Assembly (NCBI GenBank): GCA_026709335.1
Contig: JAPOTE010000011.1
Span: forward strand, 1-34,303
Source of the DNA: Bacteroidota bacterium
Lineage (GTDB): Bacteria; Bacteroidota; Rhodothermia; Rhodothermales; Bin80
Direction of reading: 5' to 3'
DNA: 34,303 bases
The notes beneath the pieces were generated by a model. The model made no database searches and was not told the DNA's origin. It saw nothing but the letters and a program-made list of their open reading frames with translations. Each line of letters begins with the position of its first letter. Within the stretch, counting starts at the first letter, position 1. The position numbers and the translations under genes were made by a program. Shown here in pieces: positions 9,522-34,303 of this stretch.

Positions 9522-9555
9522 GAACCTCCGCAAGTAATCTACTTGATCGAGGTTC
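9522..9555 (+). promoter_or_regulatory. Composite hairpin leading into the 74-bp repeat
   Basis: GAACCTC (9522-9528) pairs with GAGGTTC (9549-9555), and inside it CAAGTA (9531-9536) pairs with TACTTG (9540-9545) across a 3-base loop. The 7-bp and 6-bp stems are separated by a small 2/3-base internal loop. The outer right arm is also the first seven bases of repeat copy A, so the repeat start can pair either upstream or downstream. Confidence 0.6.
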
Positions 9556-9622
9556 TTGCAAAATCTCTGTTTTAAGACAGAAAAGATCCCCACAGATATT
9601 CTCATAGCAATATTTGTACTCA
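9549..9622 (+). repeat. 74-bp structured dispersed repeat, copy A
   Basis: This ungapped 74-base stretch matches 34147-34220 at 63 of 74 positions by direct comparison. The first 19 bases can fold as GAGGTT-loop-AATCTC. The following CTGT-loop-ACAG gives a second small stem. A shorter echo, GAGGTTTTGCAA, occurs at 9629-9640. The copy lies in the gene-free DNA after the acylase gene. It does not appear to code for protein. It could be the end of a mobile element, a MITE-like remnant or a structured RNA. Confidence 0.75.
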
Positions 9623-10080
9623 ATCTTGGAGGTTTTGCAATAGATTGGATCTTTTCCCGGGAAAGATTATGATAGAGGTATTAGTATTCTTCAATTGATA
9701 GGCAAGATCTGATATTCAGAAAGTATTTGCTGGCAAGAGAGTTGTCGACGTAGCGACCACACATTTCTGGCCGGCATTCGGTATAGATCGGGATGGTTCA
9801 ATCAAATATAGCACATGGGGGTAGGTACAGAGGTTCATTCCCTTCGCCTTGATCACAAAGGAACACATAGAGGCATACAAAGAATAATTGGGATGTGCTG
9901 CGGGCAAACAAACTTCACTTCGACTGCTTTCATGACGATGTTTGTCGTAGGAACAAACTTGCCAATCATGACAGATTACGCCGAAGATCTATCTTTACGA
10001 ATTCTTGTTTTGTGGATACGATCAGATCAGTGATGATTCTTTCAATCAGTCTTAAAATTAATTTCAAATAATATGGTGCC
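9623..10080. other. Gene-free stretch before the E2 gene
   Basis: No convincing coding region was found on either strand; the short open frames here (up to about 72 codons) resemble no family I know. The only structure that I see is the 12-bp palindrome TTTCCCGGGAAA at 9653-9664 and the partial repeat echo at 9629-9640. The E2 promoter presumably lies in the AT-rich part just before 10081, but no clear motif can be named. Decayed mobile DNA is possible. Confidence 0.5.
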
Positions 10081-33975: not shown

Positions 33976-34303
33976 AATATGCCTCGCCTGATCGAGCTCT
34001 GTAAACAGTCAATACCTCCCTGGTTTCAGAACTGTTGATCAACCCGCTGGACAGGGCATGGCACGGATATTGCTGGCATATCAACAGATCAGTGGAGGAT
34101 TCCCTATACAGACGAACCTACTGCGTTACAGAAAACTTAAACATTTGAGGTTCTTGCAAAACCTCTGTTTTCAGACAGAAAAGACTCCTTCAGGTACTTT
34201 CAGAGCAATGTTTGTACTCAGGGATTCCCACTAACTCGTTTTATGCTCATCAAAATCAAGATTTTCAGGGAAATGGCCTGTGGATTGTTTGTATTTCTGC
34301 TAC
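33976..34303. other. Gene-free right end of the window
   Basis: No convincing coding frame was found in the last 328 bases. The stretch contains copy B of the structured repeat (34147-34220), preceded by GAACCT at 34114-34119, which can pair with AGGTTC at 34148-34153. The next gene must start beyond the window. Confidence 0.5.
34147..34220 (+). repeat. 74-bp structured dispersed repeat, copy B
   Basis: The 74 bases match copy A (9549-9622) without gaps at 63 positions and in the same orientation. The first 19 bases form GAGGTT (34147-34152) and AACCTC (34160-34165) with a 7-base loop. The next part holds TCTGT/ACAGA around TTTCAG. Where A and B differ in the first stem (T versus C), pairing to G is kept (G-U versus G-C), which hints at selection on RNA structure. 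It lies in DNA without a gene. Confidence 0.75.

Follow-up and report, generated by a model that had tools for sequence, protein, structure and literature searches.

A 99-bp MITE family of an uncultured Rhodothermaceae-type genus and its probable parent insertion sequence

Two copies of a dispersed repeat, one of them interrupted

The window, by which we mean the whole stretch of 34,303 nucleotides analysed here, contains two segments, at positions 9549-9622 and 34147-34220, that are identical at 63 of 74 bases without a gap. An earlier note on this DNA had judged the likeness to be beyond chance and both segments to be non-genic. The present analysis agrees on both counts: the highest score of any ungapped repeat in the window is 65.5, where 20 first-order Markov simulations gave 14.5-17.5, and no convincing gene lies over either segment. 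The unit itself has to be redrawn. When copies are aligned, similarity extends beyond position 74 to about position 99, where it closes with the first 19 bases in inverted form. The 74 bp thus make up three quarters of a 99-bp element, counted from its left end, and they end where they do because an unrelated insertion interrupts the second copy.

Copy 1 is complete and occupies positions 9549-9647 on the plus strand. Its left terminal inverted repeat, GAGGTTCTTGCAAAATCTC, spans 9549-9567 and its right one, GAGGTTTTGCAATAGATTG, a decayed form of the consensus GAGGTTTTGCAAGAGGTTC, spans 9629-9647, both on the same strand. The tetranucleotide GATC flanks the element on either side, at 9545-9548 and 9648-9651; we assign these bases as target-site duplications from the 4-bp duplication statistics given below. 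A scan of copy 1 for terminator-like and promoter-like sites returned none inside the element; outside it there was one hit of the former kind and there were two of the latter, close to the chance number.

Copy 2 begins at 34147, directly after the bases ATTT (34143-34146), and its left 74 bp run to 34220 on the plus strand. From 34221 to the end of the window at 34303, on the same strand, lie the first 83 bp of a second element of 213 bp, which runs off the contig. The final 55 bases of the window contig are also the first 55 of another contig of the same genome, C96, which reads, beyond the shared stretch, ...TTAGTGGGAGTAGCTGG, then TTTATACTCA, then ATTTCGAGAGTTTCCCAAGAGGTTC, then ATTT. The inserted element continues at G000:C96:56-185, and the 25 bases at G000:C96:196-220 are the right end of the MITE lacking in copy 2. 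TTTATACTCA repeats, with one difference, TTTGTACTCA, the ten bases with which the MITE part in the window closes, and the ATTT directly past the completed element agrees with the ATTT that precedes copy 2. From these three agreements (the 25 bp, the 10-base repeat and ATTT) we infer that the window contig and C96 adjoin; copy 2 would therefore be a full MITE into which a second element has inserted. Its joined parts amount to 99 bases, 91 of them identical to the consensus. Truncation by decay was considered for copy 2 and rejected, as the missing end is located on C96. The inserted element is non-coding and dispersed, has the ends TCCCACTAA ... TTAGTGGGA and makes a target duplication of about 10 bp. 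Its relatives in the sister genome G006 (contigs C17, C36 and C10; L240, L241 and L242) are mutually 91-92% identical and, when inspected by eye, also have flanking 10-bp repeats (GTTCTTGATA, TGCTTCTATC and ATTCACCCAG). Mobile elements are nested in one another at the end of the window.

A third dispersed repeat lies directly upstream of copy 2, at 33989-34135 of the window (extending to about 34145). It recurs with 77-81% identity at no fewer than ten places in the same genome (L243-L252), where the other copies are longer, and may be what remains of an IS or of the end of a gene.

Terminal repeats, target duplications and folding

The element is non-coding and has imperfect terminal inverted repeats of 18-19 bp, GAGGTTCTTGCAAAACCTC on the left and GAGGTTTTGCAAGAGGTTC on the right, in which 87.8% of cells are complementary across 19 pairs. 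Element sizes range from 91 to 102 bp, mostly 96-100 bp, and so fall below the 500 bp that bounds MITEs; 100 bp leave no room for an open reading frame of useful length. Of the 75 candidate elements collected from the host and sister genomes, a set that includes a few chance pairings of end-like sequences, 35 lie between perfect 4-bp direct repeats; in a control that joined the left flank of one element with the right flank of another the frequency was 0.9%. Duplications of 5 bp occur in 2 of the 75 candidates and those of 6-9 bp in none. The homologous elements of sister species also show the 4-bp duplication.

The earlier note had left three options for the repeat: a small RNA family, a REP/MITE-like element or the end of an insertion sequence. 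It had pointed, in particular, to a hairpin in the 19-mer with which both copies open. Such a hairpin, of 6 bp, can indeed form (-2.5 kcal/mol, z -1.4), and the T/C difference between the copies does keep the stem paired, changing G-C to G-U. The covariation that would speak for a conserved structure is missing: 84.1% of cells are paired in the 5' hairpin, as compared with 83.9% in shuffles, and pair 4-16 is broken in 13 of 42 aligned elements, with many sister-species copies affected. The whole consensus also folds well (-36.2 kcal/mol, z -3.36), which would suit a small structured RNA family or a cis-regulatory RNA having the conserved 5' hairpin as its functional unit. However, once the terminal repeats are taken away, the interior is no more stable than shuffled sequence (z 0.02), so that the excess stability comes entirely from those repeats. 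RNAalifold yields no consensus pair, and searches of Rfam at gathering and permissive thresholds gave no match above the cut-off. Target duplications and the nested insertion, moreover, indicate mobile DNA. We regard an RNA family as very improbable.

The size of about 100 bp, the two inverted ends, the mostly intergenic location and the dozens of copies would also suit a REP/REPIN-type palindromic repeat moved by a RAYT (Y1 HUH) transposase. Large REP super-families are defined by GTAG or CGTC tags (PMC3733652). The ends of the present element read GAGG/GAGC in all main subfamilies and carry neither tag; moreover, the element makes 4-bp target duplications, and the full-length element that matches it encodes a DDE transposase. 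A REP/REPIN origin is accordingly the least credible of the readings considered. It is the MITE half of the second option that proves apt, on account of the terminal inverted repeats, the 4-bp duplications and a copy number of 40 or more.

Copy number, host range and placement

The host is an uncultured, Rhodothermaceae-type genus of the Bacteroidota, and the genome to which the window belongs (G000) is a fragmented draft of 2.81 Mb in 125 contigs. The search of the whole genome and of relatives that the earlier note had proposed was carried out. With copy 2 as query, at least 40 clear matches were found in the host genome; a model built from 42 elements returned 98 there at E <= 0.001, decayed and partial copies included. 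The copies in this genome average 91% identity to the consensus. Of the ten genomes of the genus, eight, counting the host genome, contain homologous elements of 96-100 bp, and the sequence type is species-specific. Model matches number 144 in G001, 45 in G002, 32 in G004, 22 in G005, 12 in G006, two in G003 (the same sequence as VXLY01000088.1, from the MAG Rhodothermaceae bacterium SB0661_bin_24) and one in G009. It is the identity of G003 with this MAG record that assigns the window to a Rhodothermaceae-type genus. There were none in G007 and G008, and none in 49 genomes outside the genus, which were searched with stricter filters. An exact 26-base pattern had no match in GTDB contigs, nor did a distant search of plasmids give one. 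We found no description of MITEs from this lineage in the open literature, the coverage of which was incomplete, and the family appears to be undescribed.

Thirty-three of 37 copies are free of overlap with any open reading frame of 100 aa or more. The earlier note had been struck by the position of both window copies at the downstream edge of transcription units, a pattern that does not hold for the family: with gene edges called crudely from open reading frames, the edges facing the elements comprise 30 gene ends and 28 gene starts, and thus there is no preference for downstream edges. Orthologous empty sites were sought around both window copies in sister species, where the intergenic DNA on either side has diverged too far to be aligned across the site.

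The probable parent and proposed mobilisation in trans

The terminal repeat GAGCCTCTTGCAAAACCTC, with 0-2 mismatches, is not confined to the short elements. It also terminates larger elements at which contigs of the host genome break off in a 55-base overlap, as would be expected of collapsed multi-copy insertion sequences. These IS ends, GAGCCTCTTGCAAAACCTCTG, include the species-specific CTCTG that also follows the repeat in the MITE. One of the larger elements, on contig C46, encodes the N-terminal half of a DUF772 transposase, and one such IS end sits just upstream of a transposase fragment belonging to the same family as the transposase of a full-length element in G006. The G006 element is 1646 bp long, carries the MITE's terminal repeats at both ends and is bordered by an ATTA duplication; the option of an IS end thereby proves well founded, inasmuch as the repeat is IS-derived and a full-length IS has the same ends. 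MITE and IS are alike in these terminal repeats only, and their interiors differ.

The IS of G006 encodes an intact transposase of 430 aa with DUF772 and DDE_Tnp_1 domains (PF01609, 2.2e-14). The protein contains YRQRTTVERAFGRLK, which fits Y-(2)-R-(3)-E-(6)-K, the signature of IS4-superfamily DDE transposases. Its best NCBIfam match is to IS1182 (NF033551, 5.2e-24), at 85 bits against a cut-off of 270, and it also scores under the cut-offs of the NCBIfam IS5 models. Since all these scores are below the cut-offs, we call the element IS1182/IS5-like and not a confirmed member of the IS1182 family. A point of divergence from that family is that the probable parent makes a 4-bp duplication, whereas IS1272, of the IS1182 family, replaces palindromic targets (PMC5678879).

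Two further sets of end-like sequences in the host genome deserve mention. On contigs C4, C32 and C110 (L059, L068 and L065), longer sequences open with the terminal repeat and go on with TGAGCTCGAA / TGGGCTCGAA; these are probably additional copies of the IS or non-autonomous derivatives of greater length. At G000:C1:44833 (L210:334) a similar end, GATCTTCTTGCAAAACCTC, has some 320 bp away, on the minus strand, a broken transposase ORF of ISNCY type that matches NF033593 at 3.5e-27. This transposase was examined as a candidate parent and set aside, no second end having been found within 4 kb.

One could envision that a different, unsampled transposase was mainly responsible for moving the MITE and that the likeness to the G006 IS goes no further than the ends. 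The host genome yielded no intact copy of the G006-type transposase, only the fragment cut by a contig end and decayed pieces, although contigs of a multi-copy IS may be missing from so fragmented a draft. In G001 and G005, which have 144 and 22 MITE matches, no relative of this transposase is detectable. G001 is the sister genome richest in elements, and its copies may therefore use another transposase; a different mobiliser, loss of the IS or IS contigs lacking from the drafts could each explain the gap in the two genomes. Against a different main mobiliser stand the terminal repeat and the 4-bp duplication that the G006 IS shares with the MITE, the CTCTG of the host-genome IS ends and the location of one such end beside a transposase fragment of the same family. 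On balance we consider this alternative unlikely, if less so than the RNA and REP readings.

Terminal repeats, 4-bp duplications, copy number and a matching full-length IS, all supported directly, as are the mostly intergenic placement and the nested insertion, lead us to conclude with high confidence that the repeat is a MITE: a non-coding, non-autonomous transposon of about 99 bp whose terminal inverted repeats, of 18-19 bp, are those of an IS4-superfamily (IS1182/IS5-like, DUF772 plus DDE) insertion sequence, by which it is presumably mobilised in trans. A full-length IS at another site in the cell, presumably of the G006 type, would supply the transposase that recognises the terminal repeats of the MITE; the element would then be cut out or copied and inserted by way of a 4-bp staggered cut, which would leave the 4-bp target duplication. 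Such movement may be recent or continuing.

The two ends of the MITE are not quite equivalent. Position 4 of the terminal repeat is non-complementary in 39 of 42 aligned MITEs, and the asymmetry is present in every well-sampled species, while the full-length IS is symmetric at this position, with C at both ends. Relative to the shared core, the asymmetric base is on the left in G000 and on the right in G001. If the ends were kept different by selection, the asymmetry could let the transposase recognise them in a set order, or make it harder for cruciforms to form. Copies from the same species are not independent, however, and the asymmetry may therefore be inherited chance; selection strikes us as unlikely.

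Prokaryotic MITEs derived from insertion sequences have been reviewed (PMC10969869), with archaeal examples described (PMC3852290), and in a Cardinium symbiont a MITE is moved by an IS982-family element (PMC9769881). Like these, the present element is short and non-coding, shares its terminal inverted repeats with a full-length IS, makes target duplications, exists in tens of copies and resembles its parent at the borders only. Unlike them, it has an IS1182/IS5-like DUF772 DDE parent, a different sequence and a 4-bp duplication, and it is present genus-wide in species-specific subfamilies. By description it may also be likened to the Correia element of Neisseria (PMC10969869), a MITE of about 100-200 bp with high copy number, whose terminal inverted repeats can fold when transcribed; the promoter, IHF and RNase III functions form no part of the likeness.

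The 99-bp MITE accounts for the repeat in the window and corrects its limits from 74 bp. As its ends match those of a full-size mobile element in a relative, it is best seen as an ordinary genome parasite. It embodies no new principle, but the family and its probable parent IS should help to annotate genomes and to date their rearrangements.
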